A DNA stretch of 64,000 bases from Methanolobus sp. ZRKC5 (GTDB lineage: Archaea; Halobacteriota; Methanosarcinia; Methanosarcinales; Methanosarcinaceae): contig NZ_CP151792.1 of NCBI RefSeq assembly GCF_038446525.1, positions 1,984,001 through 2,048,000 of the forward strand. Reading direction: 5' to 3'. The position numbers and the translations under genes were made by a program. A model generated the notes under the pieces. The model saw only the letters and a program-made list of their open reading frames with translations. It searched no databases and was not told the DNA's origin. Positions 30,484 to 42,552 of the stretch are shown piece by piece (the first letter of the stretch is position 1; each line of letters opens with the position of its first letter).

Positions 30484-31287
30484 CTATTCTGCGGTTACTT
30501 TTTCCTTAAAACCAGGGTTCATAGGTCCGTATTCTCTTCCGTGTCCACATGCTTGTGGATTGTTATCTCTTGCTTCTTCCATTATCTCCTTTAGTTCATC
30601 CAGTGTTGTTGCACTTTCGATGTCTTCCAGGAGTGCTTCCATTTCAGTTATGTGCTCTTCAATTGACTCTTCAGTGATGTTTTCATTGTCTATTTCATCA
30701 ATGTTTTCGAGCATTTCGTTCAATCTTTCAATTCTATCGTTGATTGATTCTGTCTGCTTCTCTACATGGAATTCTATCTCTTCTTCTTCGGTTTCAAACT
30801 CCATTTCTTCGATTTGTGTTTTTTCACCCATCATTCCATGCTTTTCCATCATCATGGTTTTTCTTGCTTCTTCCATGGTCTCTTTGAGTTCGTCCAGTGT
30901 TGTTGCACTTTCGATGTCTTCAAGAAGTGCTTCCAGTTCAGCGATTTGCTCTTCAATTGATTCCTCAGTGATGTCCTCGTTATCTATCTCATCAATGTTT
31001 TCGAGCATTTCGTTCAATCTTTCAATTCTGTTATTGATCGATTCTGTCTGCTTTTCTACATGGAATTCCAATTCTTCTTCTTCAGTATCAAAGACGAGTG
31101 CTTCCATGGGTTCCTCTTCATTCATCTCAGGATTTCCACGTGGTGAGTGCATCATCTTATGATCTTTCAATTCTTTTGTTTCTTCAGCGGTTCCTGTTTC
31201 ATCAGCAAAGGCGCCTGGTGCCATAGCACTAAACACCATAAGTACTAATGAAAGACAGGCAATTGCTTTTATGAATCTGTGTTTCAT
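30484..31287 (-). CDS. secreted acidic protein with internal tandem duplication
   Basis: A 267-residue secreted protein with a signal peptide (about 1-28, ending PGAFA). Two nearly identical coiled-coil-like units of about 98 residues follow. Each contains EFHVEKQTESIN, RIERLNEMLENIDEID, an EESIEE segment and LEDIESATTLDELKE. The units are strongly acidic and rich in Glu, Met and Ile. A strong ribosome site, GGAGGAAAAAA, precedes the ATG. The function is unknown; the near identity of the repeats suggests recent duplication. Confidence 0.75.
   Translation of the reverse strand: MKHRFIKAIACLSLVLMVFSAMAPGAFADETGTAEETKELKDHKMMHSPRGNPEMNEEEPMEALVFDTEEEELEFHVEKQTESINNRIERLNEMLENIDEIDNEDITEESIEEQIAELEALLEDIESATTLDELKETMEEARKTMMMEKHGMMGEKTQIEEMEFETEEEEIEFHVEKQTESINDRIERLNEMLENIDEIDNENITEESIEEHITEMEALLEDIESATTLDELKEIMEEARDNNPQACGHGREYGPMNPGFKEKVTAE
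30568..31094. repeat. direct repeat inside the secreted protein gene (period 294 bp)
   Basis: Copies at about 30568-30800 and 30862-31094 align with an offset of exactly 294 bases (98 codons), sharing long identical runs such as TCAATGTTTTCGAGCATTTC. The in-frame period keeps the protein intact. Such a repeat could expand or collapse by recombination. Confidence 0.85.
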
Positions 31288-31871
31288 TTTTTTCCTCCTT
31301 TATTATGTCTGTCAGATTCAGTGCCGGATAATTAGCAGTGCTTTTCTGACATTCCCATGATTAGCAGACTTGAATATAAGTATACTTAGCGAAAAAACGT
31401 GTAATTAGGCCTTTAAATTCAAAAATAAAGCTTTAATAAAGGTTTAGGGTCATGCACAAACTTTAAAAAACTCTAATGAACAATTATGCTTCTTCAGAAT
31501 TATTCCATGCCATGAAATTCTCAGGTATTTGTGAATCAAGGTTCAATTCCAATTCTATTATGGCATTATTCTTACATATTCATAATTATACAGTTAAATC
31601 AGCAAAAAACTCTTATGGTGAGCAATTTGCCTGTTTATACCAAAAATATGTTATTATTTAACAATCCATGCTGTGAAAAAGCTTCATAAAGAGTAAGATA
31701 CTAATAAATTACTTTGTTTTTTTCAAAACATATCTTCCAGCTAAAGTATGTTTATATTTAAATCTTTCTTTTTTGTGTAATATGAGAAAAACGTTAAGAT
31801 TTATTGCAATCTGTTTATTCATATTGATAAATAGAATTATATGGAAGCGTTTGAGTAAGGTGTAATATCCA
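31288..31871. other. non-coding interval between divergent secreted-protein genes
   Basis: About 580 AT-rich bases. The minus-strand gene has a TATA-like CTTATATTC near 31365. The plus-strand gene has TTTATATTTAA near 31749 within a segment (TTCCAG...GTATG..TTATATTTAA) resembling the promoter of the duplicated leader elements further right. A 61-codon open frame at 31476 has no ribosome site or coding signature and is not called. No RNA gene is recognised. Confidence 0.5.
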
Positions 31872-32777
31872 ATGAAAAAGCTGCCACTTACAATGATAAT
31901 ATTCCTTATATCTATCGTATTGATATCTGGTTTTATTGAATCAGAACGTTTCTCTGATATTCGTGAGGATCACCGTGGTTTATCGTCCTCACATCCTGCT
32001 TTTATCAACGAAGAACTCTTAGATGAAAGATTTCTTATCGAGTCTGATAATCGCAAACCTCCAAGAGATGAAGGTATTATTTTTGCAGATAATATTAAAA
32101 AATCAGATGGAATGGTAGAACGTCTCGAGGGTGCAATTCTTGATTTGAAAGAAAAAGGGAATGATGTTCGGGAACTTGAACAAATGGTTGAGAATTACTC
32201 TTTTCTAGTGTCCGAGGCAAAAAACAATCTTTCAAAGGCTGATGCTTCTTCCTCACTTTTAGATAAGCAAACATATCTCGCTTTGTCAAAAGATAATATA
32301 ATTCTTGCAAATTCGGAGCTAAAGGACATTTTCGATAAGATGCAAACATATTTTCCCAAACCTGTCAGTATAGCCGGGAATGATAGTCTGACTGCTCAGG
32401 GAAGTGGTATCATCATTTTGTCAGGTGACCTTAACATTGAACTTAGTCTGTATATGGGTAAGTTTTCAGTAGTTGATTTTGCAGGAGACCTGAATATTGA
32501 TACAGAAGGCATGTACAGCCCTGAAATAATCACAGAGAAAGTAATTCCATCCAATGATTCCAAATTTCCACAAACGATGCTTTCCTATAGGGATATAGAA
32601 GGCAATGTAAATCTGTCCGGTTCAGTGCTTACTGTGGTTATTATGGGTGATAATGCAAGTCTTTTTGTAAAAGGAAATGGAGAAGCTGAATTATACGGTA
32701 ACGGAACCTATTATCTTAGCAATGGAAACGTGGAGCGGGAAGGTACCTGGTCCTCCTCGATATTTGATATTGACTAA
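31872..32777 (+). CDS. secreted protein, paralog of the 33610 gene
   Basis: A 301-residue protein of unknown function. An N-terminal hydrophobic signal/anchor spans about residues 5-22 and a variable region about 25-70. A helical region (about 75-155) contains MVERLEGAILDLKEKGNDVRELEQMV, split by charge into coiled-coil-like heptads. A beta-rich C-terminal domain has GSGIIILSGDLNIELSLYMG, KFSVVDFAGDLNI and a final GEAELYGNGTYYLSNG; it looks like a bactofilin- or polymer-like beta-helix. An AAGGTG ribosome site precedes the ATG. A close relative lies 1.7 kb downstream on the same strand, with a MITE between them. Confidence 0.75.
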   Translation: MKKLPLTMIIFLISIVLISGFIESERFSDIREDHRGLSSSHPAFINEELLDERFLIESDNRKPPRDEGIIFADNIKKSDGMVERLEGAILDLKEKGNDVRELEQMVENYSFLVSEAKNNLSKADASSSLLDKQTYLALSKDNIILANSELKDIFDKMQTYFPKPVSIAGNDSLTAQGSGIIILSGDLNIELSLYMGKFSVVDFAGDLNIDTEGMYSPEIITEKVIPSNDSKFPQTMLSYRDIEGNVNLSGSVLTVVIMGDNASLFVKGNGEAELYGNGTYYLSNGNVEREGTWSSSIFDID

Positions 32778-32830
32778 AACAATACTGTTAACGTCTTAAT
32801 GTGGTATGAGGAGTTATTTCAAAATAAATC

Positions 32831-33024
32831 GTAACTATTCAGCCTGGCACGATTTGCCTATTGGTACTGATTTCATCGAAATAGAGATGTCTGCTCACTA
32901 ACAATCTAACAATCAAAAAAGCAATCAATAGCAACAATCAAAATAAATGATCCTAATGAAATTTACGTTTCAACTTTTTGTCAAGATTGTTATTGATAGC
33001 GTTTTTATCAGGCTGAATAGTTAC
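32831..33024. mobile_element. 194-bp MITE with 16-bp terminal inverted repeats and 8-bp target duplication
   Basis: The ends are perfect inverted repeats, GTAACTATTCAGCCTG (32831-32846) and CAGGCTGAATAGTTAC (33009-33024). Both are flanked by the same 8 bases, AATAAATC (32823-32830 and 33025-33032). The interior has no coding frame. The same 16-base end occurs at 63720 next to an IS66-like transposase gene, and 8-bp duplications are usual for IS66. This is therefore a non-autonomous derivative that the element at the right edge could mobilise. Confidence 0.93.
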
Positions 33025-33032
33025 AATAAATC

Positions 33033-33128
33033 AATCTATATATGCTGTTTTTTCCGGTTAGAAAGTTATATTTGTTCCTGATACTTATTAGATTCTGTTT
33101 TGGTATTTATTATCTGAATCAAAGGTCT
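33033..33128. other. AT-rich spacer between MITE and leader element A
   Basis: A short AT-rich stretch without coding potential that links the MITE's target duplication to the upstream boundary of the repeated leader element. Nothing else is seen in it. Confidence 0.4.
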
Positions 33129-33360
33129 TATAAAGGTTTATTATCTGTTTTTGATGTGTATTCTTTCTTTTCCAGTAAGTATCCTTTTATTTAAGAATGC
33201 TAATGGGGGAATTGTCTGTCAGTAATAATATAATGGCAGACACCACCCCTACTTGGTGGCACCTTATCCCCCCAACCCCCTAATTACATCCAACCAAGGT
33301 GCCACCATCGTACCACCAACCCTTCTCGTTTAAGGGATGCCTGCAATAAGTGCATCTCTT
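33129..33360 (+). ncRNA. structured leader element, copy A (unknown class)
   Basis: This block matches the one at 35609-35841 from a TATAAAG motif through to a terminal hairpin, with nearly the same length. It includes GTAAGTAT-CTTTTATT (promoter-like). CCACC and GGTGGCACCTT (33255-33265) can pair with each other, or the latter can pair with AAGGTGCCACC (33296-33306, a perfect 11-bp match). A final hairpin, AAGGGATGC/GCATCTCTT (33332-33360), follows CGTTT. The stems are kept between copies by different bases, which supports a functional RNA. It lies 250 bases upstream of the 33610 gene. Confidence 0.6.
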
Positions 33361-33609
33361 GATCGATACAGGTGATCAAATTAAGTATTTTCATATGGAC
33401 TCATTCTACTTTTAAGCGGTTGGCAATTTAAGCGTATTCAATTTGCAAGTAGTAATCATTAAGTTCATTACCTGCAACAAGAGCATGCATTTAAATATAT
33501 GTGGAATATATTAAATGAAAGTAGTGCTTAAGATGCTTTGATCTCTGTTTACTGTCCTTGAATAGGATCTGGTAATTTGTTGCTTGTATTCCCAAAGGTG
33601 TGATCATCA

Positions 33610-34524
33610 ATGAAAAAGATGCCTCTGATAATATTGATATTCCTCATGCTGCTAGTTGTTATTTCAGGCATGGTGAATTTTGGTGATGTGCAACAATATC
33701 CTGATGAAAGACATGAACGGTATTCTCAATTGTTTCCTCCTCCTTTTGATATAAAAGAGCCACAAAAAGGAGAAATGGTCCTTATCTACATGTTTCCGTA
33801 TTCTTTTAATGCGGATGAAAAAAGTATACTCGAAGACAATATTGAGAAGGCAGAGGCGATGGTGGAACGTCTTGATATTGTAATCATACGTCTGAATGAG
33901 AAAGGTAATGATGTTCAGGATCTCGACCAGATGGTGGATGAGTATGATGTTCTTGTGTCTGAGTCCAGGGGTTATCTTGTACAGGCTGAAACCTCCTCCG
34001 TAAATTCAGATAAAGAGAAATATATAAAATTATCAAAGGAGAGTATCGTTCGTGCAAATTCAGAACTTAAACACATATTCGACAAGATAAAAACATATCT
34101 TCCTGGTCCCGTGATATTATCTGGTAATAGTAGTCTGGTAGCTGAAGGTAGCGGTGTTGTAATATTGTCCGGTGACCTTGATACAAGTTTCTTCTTGTCC
34201 GAAGGTAAGTTCTCAGTAGTTGATTTTGCAGGAGATATATCAATTGATATGGAAAAAGACTACAAGCAGGAAGTTCTCCAAGAAAAGGACGGAACACCTG
34301 ATCACAATAAACCATATATTATGATTTCATATGTAGAGGTAGAAGGGAATACATCCTTGTCTGGTTCTGATTTTTCCGTTGCGATAATGGCTGATAGAAT
34401 GAGTCTTCTTGTAATTGGTACAGGTGAAGTCGAGCTGATTGGCAACGGAACCTATTATTTTGATGATGGTACATCCAGTAGAATAGGAACTGTCTGGGCA
34501 AAACCAATATTTGAGAGTGACTGA
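33610..34524 (+). CDS. secreted protein, paralog of the 31872 gene
   Basis: A 304-residue protein paralogous to 31872 along its length. It has a signal/anchor (residues 5-22), then a helical MVERLDIVIIRLNEKGNDVQDLDQMV-type region at about 85-110 (split heptads). The C-terminal beta-rich domain shares GSGVVILSGDLDT, KFSVVDFAGDISI and EVELIGNGTYYFDDG. An AAAGGTGTGATC ribosome site precedes the ATG. The membrane-anchored winged-helix gene follows almost immediately, so they are probably co-transcribed under leader element A. No known function is recognised. Confidence 0.75.
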   Translation: MKKMPLIILIFLMLLVVISGMVNFGDVQQYPDERHERYSQLFPPPFDIKEPQKGEMVLIYMFPYSFNADEKSILEDNIEKAEAMVERLDIVIIRLNEKGNDVQDLDQMVDEYDVLVSESRGYLVQAETSSVNSDKEKYIKLSKESIVRANSELKHIFDKIKTYLPGPVILSGNSSLVAEGSGVVILSGDLDTSFFLSEGKFSVVDFAGDISIDMEKDYKQEVLQEKDGTPDHNKPYIMISYVEVEGNTSLSGSDFSVAIMADRMSLLVIGTGEVELIGNGTYYFDDGTSSRIGTVWAKPIFESD

Positions 34525-34546
34525 CATAAAAACCAGGTTGTATGAC

Positions 34547-35425
34547 ATGAGAGTATTATCCTGCATAGTTTGTATTGCCATGATTTTGCTGTTATCAGGC
34601 GTTACTGCAGCTTCAAGTATTGCAACTGTACATGGTGTGGCTTATGAATGGAGCACATTCGAACCTCTTGACAATGCAATAATAGAGGTAAATTCAACTC
34701 CTTCGCAGTCGATGGTGGCTAAGTATGGTGTTTACTCCTTTGAATTACCAAACGGTAGTTATCACATCACTGCAAGTTATTACGAAGATGATCAACTTAC
34801 CTACTCTGCTGAAGATACGATCGTAGTTTCAGACGAGGGGAGTTATGTTTTAGATCTTCTGCTTTTGCCATCATATTCCAGCACTGGTGAGGAAACTGTA
34901 AGTAGTGCAGAAACGACATTACGAAACAATTCTATTCTTATTGGGGCTATATTTGTTGTAGTTATTCTTATGTTTATTCTGGTAGTCCAGATCAAACGGA
35001 AACCACAAAAGTCTCTTCCATCAAAGAAAGTAAAAATTGAAGAATTTTTACATGTATCGCCAGTGCTTATAGAAACAGCAACTGATAAAAGTGTAGAAGA
35101 AGAGCAGGAAGTGGTGCCGGAAGAAGACACTTCCACAACAGCAAGTGAAACAATTGATGAAGTTGTGAATATCCCCTTAGCAGAATCAAAAAAAGAACCT
35201 TTTCCCATTCATTCTGATGAACCGGTGCCTGCCGATCTTCAGGAAATCCTTGACATACTCAAGTCCCAGGGTGGCAGGATGACCCAGAAAGATATGCGTA
35301 AGCGTTTGAAATATTCAGAAGGCAAGGTCAGTCTCATGCTCCTTGACCTTGAAAAGAGGGGAAAGATACAGAAGTTCAAGAAAGGGCGTGGAAATGTACT
35401 TTTCCTGGTAGAATCTGAAGAGTAA
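34547..35425 (+). CDS. membrane-anchored winged-helix DNA-binding protein
   Basis: A 292-residue protein. It has a signal peptide (about 1-22), an extracellular carboxypeptidase-regulatory-like beta domain (about 25-110: VHGVAYEWSTFEPLDNAIIEV, GSYHITASYYEDD, split here) and one transmembrane helix (about 130-153). An acidic linker leads to a cytoplasmic winged helix at about 235-285 (ILKSQGGRMTQKDMRKRLKY...KFKKGRGNVLFL). This domain order is typical of methanosarcinal membrane-bound regulators that may sense the envelope. TTG 34511 is an alternative start overlapping the upstream gene; ATG 34547 gives a proper signal peptide. Confidence 0.8.
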   Translation: MRVLSCIVCIAMILLLSGVTAASSIATVHGVAYEWSTFEPLDNAIIEVNSTPSQSMVAKYGVYSFELPNGSYHITASYYEDDQLTYSAEDTIVVSDEGSYVLDLLLLPSYSSTGEETVSSAETTLRNNSILIGAIFVVVILMFILVVQIKRKPQKSLPSKKVKIEEFLHVSPVLIETATDKSVEEEQEVVPEEDTSTTASETIDEVVNIPLAESKKEPFPIHSDEPVPADLQEILDILKSQGGRMTQKDMRKRLKYSEGKVSLMLLDLEKRGKIQKFKKGRGNVLFLVESEE

Positions 35426-35608
35426 TTGTCTCTCTGCAAATTACAATATGATTTTTTCATGGTACAGATATTCTATATCAAAATGTCATTATTTAATCTT
35501 TTATGTGTTATTATGTATATTACCCGTTCGAATCAATATCAAAATTCTTAATAATTCTTAATAAGCTTTTTATTGTTTTATATGTTCTATAATTTCTATT
35601 GTAATCTC
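35426..35608. other. AT-rich interval upstream of leader element B
   Basis: A very AT-rich non-coding stretch with repeated short motifs (TTCTTAATAA). It may hold promoter or terminator activity; no defined structure is seen. Confidence 0.4.
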
Positions 35609-35841
35609 TATAAAGCTTTATTTTTTAAATATTGTTCTTTTTTTGCCTTTTTGAAGTAAGTATGCTTTTATTCAAAACTGGTTAATTGATGATTGCCTAC
35701 CGATTAAAAATCCTGGTGGGTACCACCAAAACTAGGTGCCACCAAACCCCCAACCACATCTGGTCCGGTGTCACCGACATACCAACAACCAACCATCCCT
35801 TCGTTTAAGGGATGTCTGCCCCTATCCGGCAGATGTCTCTT
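35609..35841 (+). ncRNA. structured leader element, copy B (unknown class)
   Basis: This is the second copy of the element at 33129. TATAAAG (35609), GTAAGTATGCTTTTATT (35656) and CGTTTAAGGGATG (35802) are shared in order and spacing. A local hairpin TGGTGG-GTA-CCACCA (35714-35728) is present, as is a GGTGCCACC/GGTGTCACC pair (35735/35767). The terminal hairpin here is longer, about 14 bp (AAGGGATGTCTGCC with GGCAGATGTCTCTT), with several G-U pairs replacing bases of copy A. It ends 20 bases before a 55-codon ORF. Confidence 0.6.
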
Positions 35842-35860
35842 ATCCGAAATTGGAGGATGA

Positions 35861-36126: not shown

Positions 36127-37002
36127 ATGGACGGGAATTTTACGAATGTGAAAAACAAGTCTTCAGACGATTATATTGAGACTGCTAAGAATCTCATTGA
36201 TAGAGCTAATTTGGAAAACAGGTTTTATGGTGATTATACTGAGACTGTTAAGAATGTCATCGATGAAACGAATGTGGTAAACAAGTCTTCAGGCAACAAT
36301 CCCGATACTCTCATGCGTCTTACTGATGTGTGGAAGATATACAAGATGGGAGAGGTAGAATTTGCAGCATTGAAGAGTGTCGATCTGGAGATCCTGCATG
36401 GCGAGTTTGTTGTCATACTGGGACCCAGTGGAAGCGGGAAAAGTACAATGATGAATCTTCTGGGATGTCTGGATATTCCAAGTAAGGGAACTGTAGAGCT
36501 AAATAATAAGGATATTTCAAAAATGCCAGAATCCGAGCTTGCCCAGATAAGAGGGCAGCTCATCGGTTTCATTTTCCAGCAATTTAATTTGATACCAACG
36601 TTAAACACAATCGAAAATGTAATGCTTCCTCTTGACTTCCAGGAAGCAGATTCTGATTTTTCATGGAAGAGAGCTGAAGAACTTCTTGAGATAGTTACTC
36701 TTTCTGATAAAAAGTACAATCTCCCCTCCCAATTATCAGGTGGCCAGAGACAAAGAGTTGCGATTGCAAGGTCACTGGCAGTTGATCCCAAAGTAATCCT
36801 TGCAGATGAACCAACCGGAAATCTGGACAGCGAAACAGGAAATTATATTCTTGAATTTTTAAGCAACCTTCACAAAAACGAAGGCAAGACGATTATAATG
36901 ATAACTCACGATCCGGAACTTACAAAATATGCAGATCGTGTGGTCCATATCAAAGATGGAATGGTGGACAGTATAGAAATAAAAAACAGTGAAGCTATGT
37001 GA
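36127..37002 (+). CDS. ABC transporter ATP-binding protein (MacB/LolD-like)
   Basis: A 291-residue ATPase with Walker A GPSGSGKST (about 99), Q-loop FQQFNLIPTL (about 151), signature LSGGQRQRVAIARS (about 203), Walker B VILADEPTGNLDS (about 223) and switch His in ITHDPEL (about 261). The first 60 residues are an unusual Asn-rich extension made of imperfect repeats of about 22 residues (DYIETAKNLIDRAN; DYTETVKNVIDETN) before the normal ABC start at LTDVWKIYKMG. It overlaps the S-layer-type partner gene. It probably energises an efflux or lipoprotein-handling permease (38381). Confidence 0.92.
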   Translation: MDGNFTNVKNKSSDDYIETAKNLIDRANLENRFYGDYTETVKNVIDETNVVNKSSGNNPDTLMRLTDVWKIYKMGEVEFAALKSVDLEILHGEFVVILGPSGSGKSTMMNLLGCLDIPSKGTVELNNKDISKMPESELAQIRGQLIGFIFQQFNLIPTLNTIENVMLPLDFQEADSDFSWKRAEELLEIVTLSDKKYNLPSQLSGGQRQRVAIARSLAVDPKVILADEPTGNLDSETGNYILEFLSNLHKNEGKTIIMITHDPELTKYADRVVHIKDGMVDSIEIKNSEAM

Positions 37003-38384
37003 TGAATATGAAAAAAATATTATTATTGATGTTAATACTGATATTGTCAATTACCAGTGCTTCGGCAGCTATTAGTGCCGGTGTATCGGGAATAGAGGCA
37101 GATCTAATGACTCAGAGTCCAAACCCTGCAAGACCCGGTGAAACAGTAGAACTCACTTTCAGTATCCAGAACGTAGGAAATAATGATCTTACAGGTATAG
37201 TAGTTGAGATAGAGCCGGAATATCCTTTTTCTCAGGTATCCGGAGAGTCCTTAACTAAAACAATATCATTCCTTGAAGCCCGTCAGGATGAGGAAGATGC
37301 AACTCTTGTTAAATTCAAATTAAAGGTTGATGCAGATGTTGCAGAGGATATCTATGAAATAGACGTAGTTGTCAGTGACAGTGATACAGATTCAAGTGTC
37401 TCTACAACAGTTGATGTGGATATACAGGGAAAGGAATACGCACAGGTTGTCACAATAAGTGAGTCCAATATTGATGTTGCAACTGTGGAACCCATAGAAT
37501 TCGTAATCACAAATACTGGAAGTTCTCCACTCAAGAACATGGCTGTTTCATGGGACGAAACAACAGGTATTATCTTGCCTGTATATTCATCTAATACCAA
37601 GTACATAAGCTATCTTGATGTAGGTGAATCAGCAACAGTAGCATACTCTGTAATGGCAGATGTAAATGCAGATCCGGGATTATATCAGCTTGATATCACC
37701 CTTGAGTTTGAGGATTATGACTCAAATACCAATACCATCGAAACCAAGGCAGGTCTGTTTGTGGGAGGTACCACTGACTTCGATCTGAGTTACTCTGAGA
37801 GCGATGAAGGTGAAGTATCTTTATCACTTGCAAACGTGGGTAACAATGAAGCTTACTCTGTCAAGGTTTCAATACCGGAACAGGATAATTTCCAGGCTAC
37901 AGGAAGTACATCCACAATCGTCGGTAACCTTGAGAAGGGAGATTATACTATCACTTCATTCTCCATATCACAGGTTGGTTCGATGACTTCCACAGATGAG
38001 GATTCATCCGGTACCGCCCAGGCACGTCCTGACCTTTCAGAGATGACAGATGAGCAGATAGTAGCAAAGCAAGAACAGATGGAATCAAAGAATGAGCTTC
38101 TGGTTCTAATTGAGTATACAGATTCAGCAGGTCAGAGGAACTCAGTTGAGAAAACGGTTCAGATAGAAGAACTGACCGGCGGAACCATGGCAGCAGGCAT
38201 GGGCCCGGGGCAAAGACAATCAAGCAGTAACAATTACTACCTGTACGGCGCTGCCCTCCTTGTAATCGTGGCTGTAGGATTCAATTACAGGAAAAAAAAG
38301 ATGCAAAAGGAAGGTACTTATAAGCCTCTGAGTGTTGAACTTAAAAATCTCAAAGGTAGTATCTTGAAGAAGGAAAAGAAATGA
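36999..38384 (+). CDS. COG1361-type envelope protein, ABC transporter partner
   Basis: A 461-residue protein. After a signal peptide (about 1-24, ending ITSASA) come three or four beta-sandwich repeats of the COG1361/NEW3/CARDB type, with phrases like PARPGETVELTFSIQNVGNNDL and SLANVGNNEAYSVKVS. A transmembrane helix (about 408-425) and a basic cytoplasmic tail end the protein. Located between the ATPase and permease, it may replace the periplasmic adaptor of bacterial MacAB systems. GTG 36999, ATG 37002 and ATG 37008 are all possible starts. Confidence 0.85.
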   Translation: MMNMKKILLLMLILILSITSASAAISAGVSGIEADLMTQSPNPARPGETVELTFSIQNVGNNDLTGIVVEIEPEYPFSQVSGESLTKTISFLEARQDEEDATLVKFKLKVDADVAEDIYEIDVVVSDSDTDSSVSTTVDVDIQGKEYAQVVTISESNIDVATVEPIEFVITNTGSSPLKNMAVSWDETTGIILPVYSSNTKYISYLDVGESATVAYSVMADVNADPGLYQLDITLEFEDYDSNTNTIETKAGLFVGGTTDFDLSYSESDEGEVSLSLANVGNNEAYSVKVSIPEQDNFQATGSTSTIVGNLEKGDYTITSFSISQVGSMTSTDEDSSGTAQARPDLSEMTDEQIVAKQEQMESKNELLVLIEYTDSAGQRNSVEKTVQIEELTGGTMAAGMGPGQRQSSSNNYYLYGAALLVIVAVGFNYRKKKMQKEGTYKPLSVELKNLKGSILKKEKK

Positions 38385-39616
38385 GGCGAAGTACCTATCT
38401 AAAGCTTGCTATGAACATTCTGATCCACAGTAAGATCAGAAGCTGGCTCACTATAATAGGTATTGTTATTGGTGTTGGTTCAGTTGTCACTATTATGGCA
38501 CTCAGTGACAGTATGACCGCAGATATGGAGGACAGATTTGCTGATATGGACCTAACCTCAATAACGGTCACTCCGGGATATACCAAGGCTCAGTCAGGTT
38601 TCGGTCCTGGTAGGGGAGGTGATTCCTCTTCTTCTTCATCTGACGCAGAGCTGACAGATAAGGATATTATGGCCATAAAACTGGTTGAAAATATCGATTA
38701 CATCTATGGGCAGATATCTGACAGTGGTATGGAAGTGTATTTCATGGGTGAGGCTGCCGATCTTTCTGTGAAAGGCGTTGATCCGCAGGTCTGGCAGTAC
38801 ACTGTGACGTATAATCTTGAATCCGGCAGACTGCTGGATGCCACTGACAACAATGCTGTGGTCATAGGTTACAGGATAGCCCATGAAATGTTCGATGATG
38901 AAGTAGGTCTAAATCGTGTACTTACTATCGAAGGTAAATCTTTCAGGGTTGTAGGTATACTGGAGGATGGTGAAAGTGATAGTTCTATCATCATGCCAAT
39001 AGATGCAGCAGTTGATATAATTGATGATGCAGAGCGTGATGTCTTTGACTCTATAGTAGTAAAGGCAGATGATGTTGATAATGTAGAGACAGTAGTTGAT
39101 GCTGTCGAAGAGAAACTTATGATATCCAGACACATCGTCAATGATGATGACAGGGATTTCACGGTATCTGACTCATTGTCACAGGCAGAATCTGCCAGTG
39201 AGATGATGGATTCAATGACATTGTTCCTGGGAGCTATAGCAGGTGTATCACTTGTTGTGGGTTCGGTGGGAATTGCAAACACCATGTTCACATCTGTGCT
39301 GGAAAAGACCAAGGAGATCGGTACTATGAAAGCCATAGGAGCTAAGAATCGGGATATTCTCATGATATTCCTCGTGAACTCTGCACTTGTGGGCTTTGTA
39401 GGAGGTGTGCTTGGCATATTGTTGAGTCTTGTGCTGACGTCTCTTATGCCATATCTTGGCATCTCCATAATGCGTTCATCCATGGGTTCGACCATTGCTC
39501 CTGACCTCATGTTAATGGGCATATCCATAGCTGTTGGCATAGGTATCCTTTCGGGTGTGATTCCAGCCTATAATGCGTCGAAGATGAAACCTGTGGATGC
39601 ACTGAGATACGAGTGA
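38381..39616 (+). CDS. ABC transporter permease (MacB/FtsX family)
   Basis: A 411-residue permease with the MacB architecture. An N-terminal transmembrane helix (about 22-42) is followed by a large extracytoplasmic MacB-PCD domain (about 45-275, with an acidic/serine loop near residue 85). Three C-terminal helices belong to the FtsX domain, with GTMKAIGAKNRDIL before the third helix and PVDALRYE at the end. It overlaps the preceding gene by 4 bases, completing a three-gene operon. Confidence 0.93.
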   Translation: MRRSTYLKLAMNILIHSKIRSWLTIIGIVIGVGSVVTIMALSDSMTADMEDRFADMDLTSITVTPGYTKAQSGFGPGRGGDSSSSSSDAELTDKDIMAIKLVENIDYIYGQISDSGMEVYFMGEAADLSVKGVDPQVWQYTVTYNLESGRLLDATDNNAVVIGYRIAHEMFDDEVGLNRVLTIEGKSFRVVGILEDGESDSSIIMPIDAAVDIIDDAERDVFDSIVVKADDVDNVETVVDAVEEKLMISRHIVNDDDRDFTVSDSLSQAESASEMMDSMTLFLGAIAGVSLVVGSVGIANTMFTSVLEKTKEIGTMKAIGAKNRDILMIFLVNSALVGFVGGVLGILLSLVLTSLMPYLGISIMRSSMGSTIAPDLMLMGISIAVGIGILSGVIPAYNASKMKPVDALRYE

Positions 39617-40961: not shown

Positions 40962-41276
40962 ATGTCGGAAAAATCCTGGTTTTTTGCACTTAATGATAGT
41001 GATTTGAATGAGGGCAATATGGAGTTTGTCAGGGTAAAAGGAACACCTTTGCTTCTTATAAGGAAAAATGGAGTTATCTATTCACTTTTCGGTAAGTGTA
41101 AACATATGGGATGTCGTCTTTCTAAAGGAACTTTCAGCGATGAGTTTATTCTGAAGTGCCCGTGCCATGGCTGGGAATATGACATAAGGTCTGGCAAATA
41201 TCTTGGAGACAAGGACGAAGCTCTTGAATTCTACGAGAACAAGGTAGAAGATGGAGAAATACTTGTCCTTCTTTGA
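40962..41276 (+). CDS. Rieske [2Fe-2S] protein 1
   Basis: A 104-residue Rieske ferredoxin. The ligands are Cys46 and His48 (CKHMGC) and Cys66 and His69 (CPCH), the Cys-X-His...Cys-X2-His pattern. Two additional cysteines (Cys51 and Cys68) are conserved in all three tandem copies and may form a disulfide as in cytochrome bc1-type Rieske proteins. No signal peptide is present, so it is cytoplasmic. It is the first gene of a six-gene redox cluster. Confidence 0.9.
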   Translation: MSEKSWFFALNDSDLNEGNMEFVRVKGTPLLLIRKNGVIYSLFGKCKHMGCRLSKGTFSDEFILKCPCHGWEYDIRSGKYLGDKDEALEFYENKVEDGEILVLL

Positions 41277-41303
41277 ACTGTTCGTTACATAAGGAGGTCT
41301 GAA

Positions 41304-41609
41304 ATGACTTCGTGGGTAATAGTCGCAAATGATGTTGAAGTGAAAGAAGGTGAAATGAAACCCATGGATGTTGGGGACAAACAATTACTCCTTATCCGTA
41401 AAGGTGGGGAAGTGTTTGCTCTTGAGAACCGATGTCCACATATGAACTGTCATCTTGAGGGTGGTACCCTGCAGGACTATTCCCTAAAATGTCCGTGTCA
41501 CAGTTGGATATTTGATATTCGCACCGGGGCATACGTAGCATCCGATAAGATAAAAGTGAACGTGTACGATACACAGGTGAAGGATGGCAAGATAGCCGTT
41601 CTAACATGA
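41304..41609 (+). CDS. Rieske [2Fe-2S] protein 2
   Basis: A 101-residue Rieske ferredoxin and second member of the tandem trio. The ligands are Cys44/His46 and Cys63/His66, with the extra pair Cys49 and Cys65. It differs from copy 1 in most other positions, so the duplication is old. A strong AGGAGGTCTGAA ribosome site precedes the ATG. The stop overlaps the next frame. Confidence 0.9.
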   Translation: MTSWVIVANDVEVKEGEMKPMDVGDKQLLLIRKGGEVFALENRCPHMNCHLEGGTLQDYSLKCPCHSWIFDIRTGAYVASDKIKVNVYDTQVKDGKIAVLT

Positions 41610-41629
41610 TATGCAACAGGAATGTATCT

Positions 41630-41959
41630 ATGAATCAGGAAAGTAAATGGATATTTGCAATAAAGGAAGATGAACTTGCTGATGATGAAAAAAAGGCATT
41701 ATTACTTGAAGATGATAAAGTGCTCCTTATCAGAAAAGATGGTCTGTTTTTTGCAATATCCAATAAGTGTCCTCATATGGAATGTCCACTGTCAAAAGGT
41801 ACTCTGGAACAGTATATATTAAAATGTCCCTGCCATGACTGGAGATTTGATATTCGAAGTGGTGAGTTCCTTGATGCAAAAGAGATCAGGGTATCTGTCT
41901 ATGAAACAAAGCTCATGGATGGCGGTGTTTTTGTAAATATGGGAGGTGCAAGCAAGTGA
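41630..41959 (+). CDS. Rieske [2Fe-2S] protein 3
   Basis: A 109-residue Rieske ferredoxin with ligands Cys47/His49 and Cys66/His69 and the extra cysteines Cys52 and Cys68. ATG 41630 aligns its N-terminus with the other two copies; an ATG at 41606 overlapping the upstream stop is an alternative. The 3' end overlaps the glutaredoxin gene by 4 bases. Confidence 0.88.
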   Translation: MNQESKWIFAIKEDELADDEKKALLLEDDKVLLIRKDGLFFAISNKCPHMECPLSKGTLEQYILKCPCHDWRFDIRSGEFLDAKEIRVSVYETKLMDGGVFVNMGGASK

Positions 41960-42204
41960 AGAAAGTAGTTATGTACACACTCAGTACCTGCCCCTGGTGT
42001 ATGAGGGCAAAGAAATTCTTCAGGGAACAGGATATTCCCTTTGAGTATATTGATTATGACAAGGCAGATGACGATACAAAAAAGGCTATCAAGGATGATT
42101 GTCTTGCCCATGGTTCTGAAATGTCTTTTCCATTTGTGAAGGTCGATGAGGATGTCGTAGTGGGATACAATCCGGCCAAGTACTCAAAATTACTCAAGTT
42201 GTGA
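41956..42204 (+). CDS. glutaredoxin-like protein
   Basis: An 82-residue thioredoxin-fold protein with the redox motif CPWC at Cys12-Cys15, FEYIDYDKADDDTKKAI after it, and FPFVKVDED near residue 58 in place of the usual TVP loop. It starts with GTG overlapping the Rieske 3 stop. In the cluster it is the likely dithiol partner of the adjacent ferredoxin:thioredoxin reductase catalytic subunit. Confidence 0.88.
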   Translation: MKKVVMYTLSTCPWCMRAKKFFREQDIPFEYIDYDKADDDTKKAIKDDCLAHGSEMSFPFVKVDEDVVVGYNPAKYSKLLKL

Positions 42205-42210
42205 TCAAAG

Positions 42211-42552
42211 ATGGATAACGAAAAGCGTAAGGAGAAACTCAGGGCAATGTTCTCAAAGGTTGTAGATCCTCTGGGATACAAAATCAGTCCTGACACTGAA
42301 CTGGTTGATTTCTTACTTGAGCAGGAAGTTAACATCGAAAAAGAAAAAGGCAGTCCTTTTTGTCCCTGTCAGGGTCTTACAGGTGAAAGAGAGCATGATA
42401 TGAAGCTCGTCTGTCCATGTATACCTTTTCACAGGGAACACTATGATGCGATGAAGCGCTGCTGGTGTGGTCTTTATGTACACAAGGATATTGAAGACCC
42501 GGACAGTCTTATGCAGATATCTCTGCAAGAGTTCCTTGAATCAAAAAAATAG
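42211..42552 (+). CDS. ferredoxin:thioredoxin reductase catalytic subunit-like protein
   Basis: A 113-residue protein with the three dicysteine motifs of FTR catalytic chains: CPC (51-53), CPC (68-70) and CWC (84-86, in place of the usual CHC). These hold a 4Fe-4S cluster beside the active disulfide that reduces thioredoxin-like partners with ferredoxin electrons. Methanosarcina has a characterised homolog reducing a thioredoxin-fold protein; here the glutaredoxin lies immediately upstream. GTGATC precedes the ATG. Confidence 0.9.
   Translation: MDNEKRKEKLRAMFSKVVDPLGYKISPDTELVDFLLEQEVNIEKEKGSPFCPCQGLTGEREHDMKLVCPCIPFHREHYDAMKRCWCGLYVHKDIEDPDSLMQISLQEFLESKK

Follow-up and report, generated by a model that had tools for sequence, protein, structure and literature searches.

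A covarying three-hairpin RNA, probably a cis-acting 5′ leader, associated with envelope genes in Methanolobus

The 64,000-nucleotide stretch of Methanolobus DNA analyzed here (the window, to which all coordinates refer) carries two copies, A and B, of a folded RNA that belongs to a previously uncatalogued family, a covarying leader of methylotrophic methanogens with no match in Rfam 15. It is probably a conserved structured 5′ leader that acts in cis on an envelope operon whose first gene encodes a small protein. As judged from sequence, it most likely represents a new family of cis-acting leaders, which would control the translation or the stability of the envelope operon.

Block A (from 33129) and block B (from 35609) share 150 identities in a 230-column alignment; their local alignment score is 129, against a mean of 23.1 and a maximum of 41 in 1000 shuffles. 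The fold z-scores are −5.0 for copy A and −3.5 for copy B, with none of 200 shuffles as good. The initial annotation had described two related structured blocks, and the alignment score, the fold z-scores and the compensatory changes described below, all above shuffles, bear this out: the likeness of the two copies as folded RNAs is confirmed and is stronger than was claimed. It had also taken each whole block as the RNA element; the blocks do contain a three-hairpin RNA, but their first ~75–80 bases are a DNA promoter, so that the RNA proper is confined to the following regions.

33211..33366, + strand: structured RNA, copy A (model R1, 115.6 bits, E 3.7e-27; window-free model R2, 99.7 bits, E 1.4e-24)
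35692..35847, + strand: structured RNA, copy B (R1, 126 bits, E 9.8e-30; R2, 84 bits, E 1.7e-20)

The family promoter consists of an AAAGCTTYATT box and, after it, the palindrome TAAGTATNCTT, to which a TATA-like box is fused. In the alignment of 12 A and 14 B copies, TATAAAGYTTYATT represents the first box, and TAAGTATNCTTTTATTTAA, about 45 bases further downstream, the palindrome joined to the TATA-like box. The copies in the window are:

33129..33142, + strand: upstream promoter box of copy A, TATAAAGGTTTATT (consensus AAAGYTTYATT), ~45 bp 5′ of the palindrome and conserved across the genus in A and B
33176..33194, + strand: palindrome and TATA-like box of copy A, TAAGTATCCTTTTATTTAA, locus-specific in the genome and at a fixed spacing to the RNA
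35609..35622, + strand: upstream promoter box of copy B, TATAAAGCTTTATT, from conservation across the genus and the A/B alignment
35657..35675, + strand: palindrome and TATA-like box of copy B, TAAGTATGCTTTTATTCAA, from the fixed spacing and genome matches
31370..31388, − strand: third perfect palindrome/TATA copy, 5′ of the secreted-protein gene 31287–30484 (−)
31743..31761, + strand: fourth, imperfect palindrome/TATA copy, 5′ of the first secreted paralogue (31872)

Genome-wide, the palindrome/TATA element has three perfect matches, all within this cluster; the copy preceding ORF 31872, found in the whole-genome search, has two mismatches. The distance from the start of this element to the first RNA base is 34–36 bases in 26 of 26 copies, a fixed spacing that, with the TATA-like box as the only guide, would place the transcription start near the first hairpin. 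The gene served by the third promoter copy (30484–31287, −) encodes a secreted protein in which the internal repeat EFHVEKQTESIN.RIERLNEMLENIDEIDNE.ITEESIEE occurs twice, and its leader contains a TGTCAG/CTGACA hairpin.

A search of 84,980 species genomes with the promoter pattern AAAGNTTNATTN{28,42}AAGTATNCTTWTATT returned 32 stretches, mainly from Methanosarcinaceae. Four of them belong to bacterial records that lack related genes, and the remaining 28 come from Methanosarcinaceae or, in one case, carry the label Euryarchaeota only. An ABC ATPase lies downstream in 22 of these 28 loci, the remainder being A copies, truncated, or (L120 and L133) located 5′ of other small genes, and secreted/winged-helix genes lie upstream at most of the 28 that have enough sequence. 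L120 (8–500) and L133, both from Methanolobus vulcani, combine the promoter pattern with a short hairpin leader and two very small ORFs that seem to encode membrane peptides. From its position, one might guess that the winged-helix protein regulates the cluster promoter.

RNAalifold predicts three hairpins, P1, P2 and P3, located as follows.

33214..33241, + strand: P1 of copy A, at the predicted 5′ end of the RNA, with both-side changes in 7 of 10 pairs
33254..33307, + strand: P2 of copy A, GGTGGCACC/GGTGCCACC around a C/A-rich loop (covariation, fold)
33326..33366, + strand: terminal hairpin P3 of copy A, with 97.8% of cells paired and both-side changes in 6 pairs
35695..35721, + strand: P1 of copy B (covariation)
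35735..35775, + strand: P2 of copy B (fold, covariation)
35801..35847, + strand: terminal hairpin P3 of copy B, with an extended inner stem (fold, covariation)

With a structure extended from the RNAalifold prediction and the 26 aligned sequences (12 A and 14 B), standard pairs occupy 93.0% of the pair cells, compared with a mean of 87.7 after shuffling. Changes on both sides of a pair were counted in 75 cells against 28.6 expected, a number reached by none of 500 shuffles, which ignore relatedness; sliding controls fell to 36.7–45.3% paired. Covariation over the 26 sequences is far above chance, and the earlier proposal that the stems are kept by different bases holds, as does the longer terminal stem ascribed to copy B. 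The most conserved parts of the leader are C/A-rich unpaired segments, and the invariant positions fall in joints and apical loops and form no compact junction. The apical CCTATCC of P3 in copy B is located at 35821–35827, and this loop is kept in most copies.

DNA searches of 112 Methanosarcinaceae genomes recovered orthologues of both A and B. The covariance-model search named in the initial annotation as a check also found further copies: model R1 detects two in 13 Methanolobus genomes, 2.6–2.9 kb apart where on one contig, and one in G054, with weaker matches in G040, G044, G047, G056, G068 and Methanosarcina G081. A similar leader in G050 was found by DNA search only. Model R2, built from the A copies of relatives with the window excluded, recovers both window copies at the E values given above. 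Neither DNA search nor model found a leader in 8 of 27 Methanolobus genomes, and a class-wide run over 238 genomes with stricter filters found nothing outside Methanosarcinaceae. At the gathering score, Rfam gives no match to the window element and no related match in nine loci with related leaders; at loose thresholds only implausible eukaryotic families appeared, and these were discarded. The one Rfam match among those nine loci, a HEARO RNA (RF02033, 135.6 bits) at L135:2647–2851, in a Methanosarcina MAG, is unrelated to the leader. The further copies, the strong covariation and the lack of an Rfam match support the earlier claim of a new RNA family tied to envelope genes.

The gene neighborhoods are as initially annotated, with copy A 5′ of secreted-protein and winged-helix genes and copy B 5′ of a 55-codon ORF and an ABC transporter:

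33367..33609, + strand: region after copy A, with no ORF; a Shine-Dalgarno-like AGGTGA remains, and most relatives have a small ORF of 65–82 aa here
33610..34524, + strand: secreted-protein gene 3′ of copy A, no Pfam family, paralogue of 31872–32777
34541..35425, + strand: membrane protein with a C-terminal winged helix (Pfam DUF7343), a candidate local regulator
35852..35856, + strand: Shine-Dalgarno sequence GGAGG of the 55-codon ORF, read from the sequence 5 bases after P3
35861..36028, + strand: small ORF of 55 aa, leader-associated family with the motif KLxPEQMxRLxxISP; dN < dS in sampled pairs of relatives
36127..37002, + strand: ABC transporter ATPase (ABC_tran, synteny), the first large gene 3′ of copy B
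36999..38384, + strand: secreted protein of the ABC operon, with weak NEW3/CARDB-type matches
38381..39616, + strand: MacB/FtsX-type permease (Pfam match)

Further downstream, at 40962–42552, three small ORFs in a row, similar to one another and bearing CPHM/CPCH-type motifs, are followed by a glutaredoxin-like ORF and another small ORF; by eye only, the group resembles Rieske-type ferredoxins accompanied by a redox partner.

Methanolobus genomes with a single copy have one divergent leader directly 5′ of a ~55-aa small ORF and a MacB-like ABC ATPase, the full order being secreted protein, winged-helix membrane protein, leader, small ORF and ABC ATPase. In one of these, G040, the small ORF starts 16 bases past the leader and its stop codon lies ~20 bases from the ATPase start. 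Two-copy species have the module from secreted protein to small ORF doubled, most with a second winged-helix gene; some relatives (G061, G043 and G042) have a first winged-helix gene at the place of window positions 32778–33128, and others, including the window genome and G058, lack it. In an unrooted tree the A leaders and B leaders form separate groups (support 0.96), which is consistent with a single duplication, and we read the module (secreted protein, winged-helix gene, leader and small ORF) as having been duplicated once within Methanolobus. The small ORFs form one homologous family: the single-copy members have MKDxFKQFIExRTQA...YVASALIRKLTPEQMDRLLKISP...DFHW, A forms retain the N-terminal part and DFKW, and B forms retain KLxPEQMxRLxxISP. 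In all 11 sampled pairs dN is lower than dS, by differences ranging from clear (0.02 and 0.23) to bare (0.18 and 0.21). Structure prediction for the small protein was poor (mean pLDDT 60.8). No ORF of at least 35 aa follows copy A in the window genome, which has lost the copy-A small ORF.

The cluster promoter also precedes the ABC operon in Methanosarcina and Methanococcoides, and the leaders there (Methanosarcina-type and Methanococcoides) look structured as well. R1 gives no significant match to them, and in those genera it is promoter and position, not demonstrable descent of the RNA itself, that point to kinship. Because the RNA lies directly 5′ of the small ORF and ABC operon, and the same promoter is found in other genera, our reading is that of a 5′ leader acting in cis. 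Structural and positional attributes of such a leader are present: conserved structure with compensatory changes, a promoter upstream at the 34–36 base spacing, and a conserved same-strand gene downstream (the ABC ATPase in 22/28 loci). Several observations argue the other way, among them the 8 Methanolobus genomes with no hit and the lack of R1 matches to the Methanosarcina-type and Methanococcoides leaders. Copy A of the window is kept though its small ORF is gone, which control of that ORF in cis alone would not explain, and two divergent R1 copies in Methanosarcina G081 precede unrelated genes. These copies (L099:7848–10623) are ~2.6 kb apart, 5′ of genes for an Lcl_C-domain protein and a DUF4405/fumarate-reductase-type flavoprotein.

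Comparison of the copies supports the following arrangement. The cluster-specific promoter precedes the RNA at its fixed spacing, and the RNA folds into P1 at its predicted 5′ end, P2 enclosing a C/A-rich loop and P3 beside the Shine-Dalgarno sequence. A conserved small ORF of ~55–80 aa usually comes next, and 3′ of it lie the secreted/winged-helix genes (copy A) or, for copy B and in single-copy relatives, the MacB-like ABC genes. The leader may set how stable the mRNA is, how readily ribosomes reach the small ORF and operon, or both, and in this way probably controls the making of the small protein and the ABC transporter. In single-copy relatives, the 3′ strand of P3 could leave the hairpin and pair over ~8–11 bp with the Shine-Dalgarno sequence; since this would close that site, formation of P3 would be the ON state there. 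The pairing was evaluated in groups of unequal size (10 A, 14 B and 5 single-copy). For single-copy relatives it averages −15.3 kcal/mol with z −2.6 versus shuffles, although the idea was drawn from single-copy leaders that the test set itself includes, and this z is therefore no independent confirmation. The corresponding values are −7.8 kcal/mol (z −0.7, weak) for copy B and −4.8 kcal/mol (z −0.1, absent) for copy A, so no single switch fits all copies. A Shine-Dalgarno switch in the single-copy relatives is credible; in copies A and B, stabilization or protein binding would be equally likely.

A switch had earlier been proposed in which GGTGG pairs alternatively with two CCACC segments. Both partners are indeed complementary, but only the downstream (P2) one covaries with it (2 both-side cells); pairing with the upstream CCACC shows no both-side changes, and the switch is not retained. 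A four-strand attenuator, in which a CCCUU/CUC strand competes for the 5′ strand of P3, was likewise rejected: only in window copy B did that pairing outdo shuffled sequence (−12.1 kcal/mol, z −3.4).

The RNA might instead only stabilize the mRNA, its 5′-terminal hairpin and strong P3 protecting the transcript without any switching. In every copy P1 begins where the RNA is predicted to start, and the mtaA and mtaC mRNAs of a cold-adaptive methanogen are reportedly stabilized by long 5′ UTRs (PMC5378194); loop and joint conservation exceeds the needs of a simple protective hairpin, however, and we regard this as possible but doubtful. It is unlikely that the RNA acts in trans, as a small RNA whose end is formed near P3 by processing or termination and whose C-rich single-stranded segments (ACCACCC, CCAACCACATCC) mask the Shine-Dalgarno sequences of other mRNAs. 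The C/A-rich unpaired segments are the best-conserved parts, copy A persists without a small ORF, and small RNAs are well documented in Methanosarcina (sRNA162, PMC3510493) and M. psychrophilus (195 sRNAs). Since any Shine-Dalgarno sequence will pair with a C-rich stretch, such pairing is weak evidence here. Most copies adjoin their own Shine-Dalgarno sequence and small ORF and the same ABC operon, and inspection of copy B revealed no clear U-run past P3. The earlier choice between a cis-acting RNA and a small RNA is therefore narrowed: genomic position favors the cis leader over a free small RNA.

A ligand-binding riboswitch, with P1–P2 and the conserved joints as aptamer and P3 with the Shine-Dalgarno sequence as expression platform, would suit a long covarying leader of transport genes with invariant joints, as well as the strong alternative pairing in single-copy relatives and reuse before unrelated genes in G081. 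We consider it improbable given that the competitor of the P3 5′ strand fails outside window copy B, that the invariant positions form no compact junction, and that between genera the leader diverges past R1 detection. Its fullest version, to which we attach a low probability, would be a new archaeal riboswitch-type control: P1–P2 would respond to a ligand or to a signal from the envelope, and so hold the P3 3′ strand either in P3 or on the Shine-Dalgarno sequence of the small-protein and ABC operon, the two Methanolobus copies having been tuned after duplication. Repeated DNA lacking RNA function, whether a mobile element or chance similarity, is scarcely credible: the two copies lie near each other and the promoter part is conserved as DNA, but the RNA has compensatory changes, A and B are orthologous across species, and Methanolobus genomes with the leader hold one or two copies in the same cluster (in the window genome R1 finds just the two), not many scattered ones.

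Preferred as a cis-acting leader of its own operon, the RNA differs in placement from sRNA162 of Methanosarcina mazei, likewise a methanoarchaeal regulatory RNA, which is processed and acts on mRNAs, with targets both in trans and in cis (PMC3510493). The mtaA and mtaC mRNAs, also of a Methanolobus-type methanogen, have long 5′ UTRs that are reported to aid transcript stability at low temperature (cited in PMC5378194); those are methanogenesis genes, whereas the present leader is a covarying family 5′ of envelope transport genes. PMC5378194 also describes an alternative 5′ UTR of the Methanolobus Hsp20 gene (Mpsy_0075), in which a stem-loop is predicted to mask the ribosome-binding site; that UTR is 65 nt long and set by start-site choice, and the passages on it describe no covarying three-hairpin RNA. 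Nothing in the passages of literature on the ‘cold box’ sRNAs of M. psychrophilus links them to the leader. Accompanied by a promoter specific to its locus, a small conserved protein and an ABC transporter, the leader offers a compact test of archaeal post-transcriptional control, and relatives with one copy, two copies or a lost small ORF provide natural comparisons. In translational riboswitches, hairpin formation and Shine-Dalgarno pairing are mutually exclusive. The single-copy relatives resemble this arrangement, whereas the leader has only a candidate aptamer, and Shine-Dalgarno pairing is weak in window copy B and absent in copy A. Since complementarity able to sequester the Shine-Dalgarno sequence is present in some relatives and missing in others, the switch idea is directly testable.
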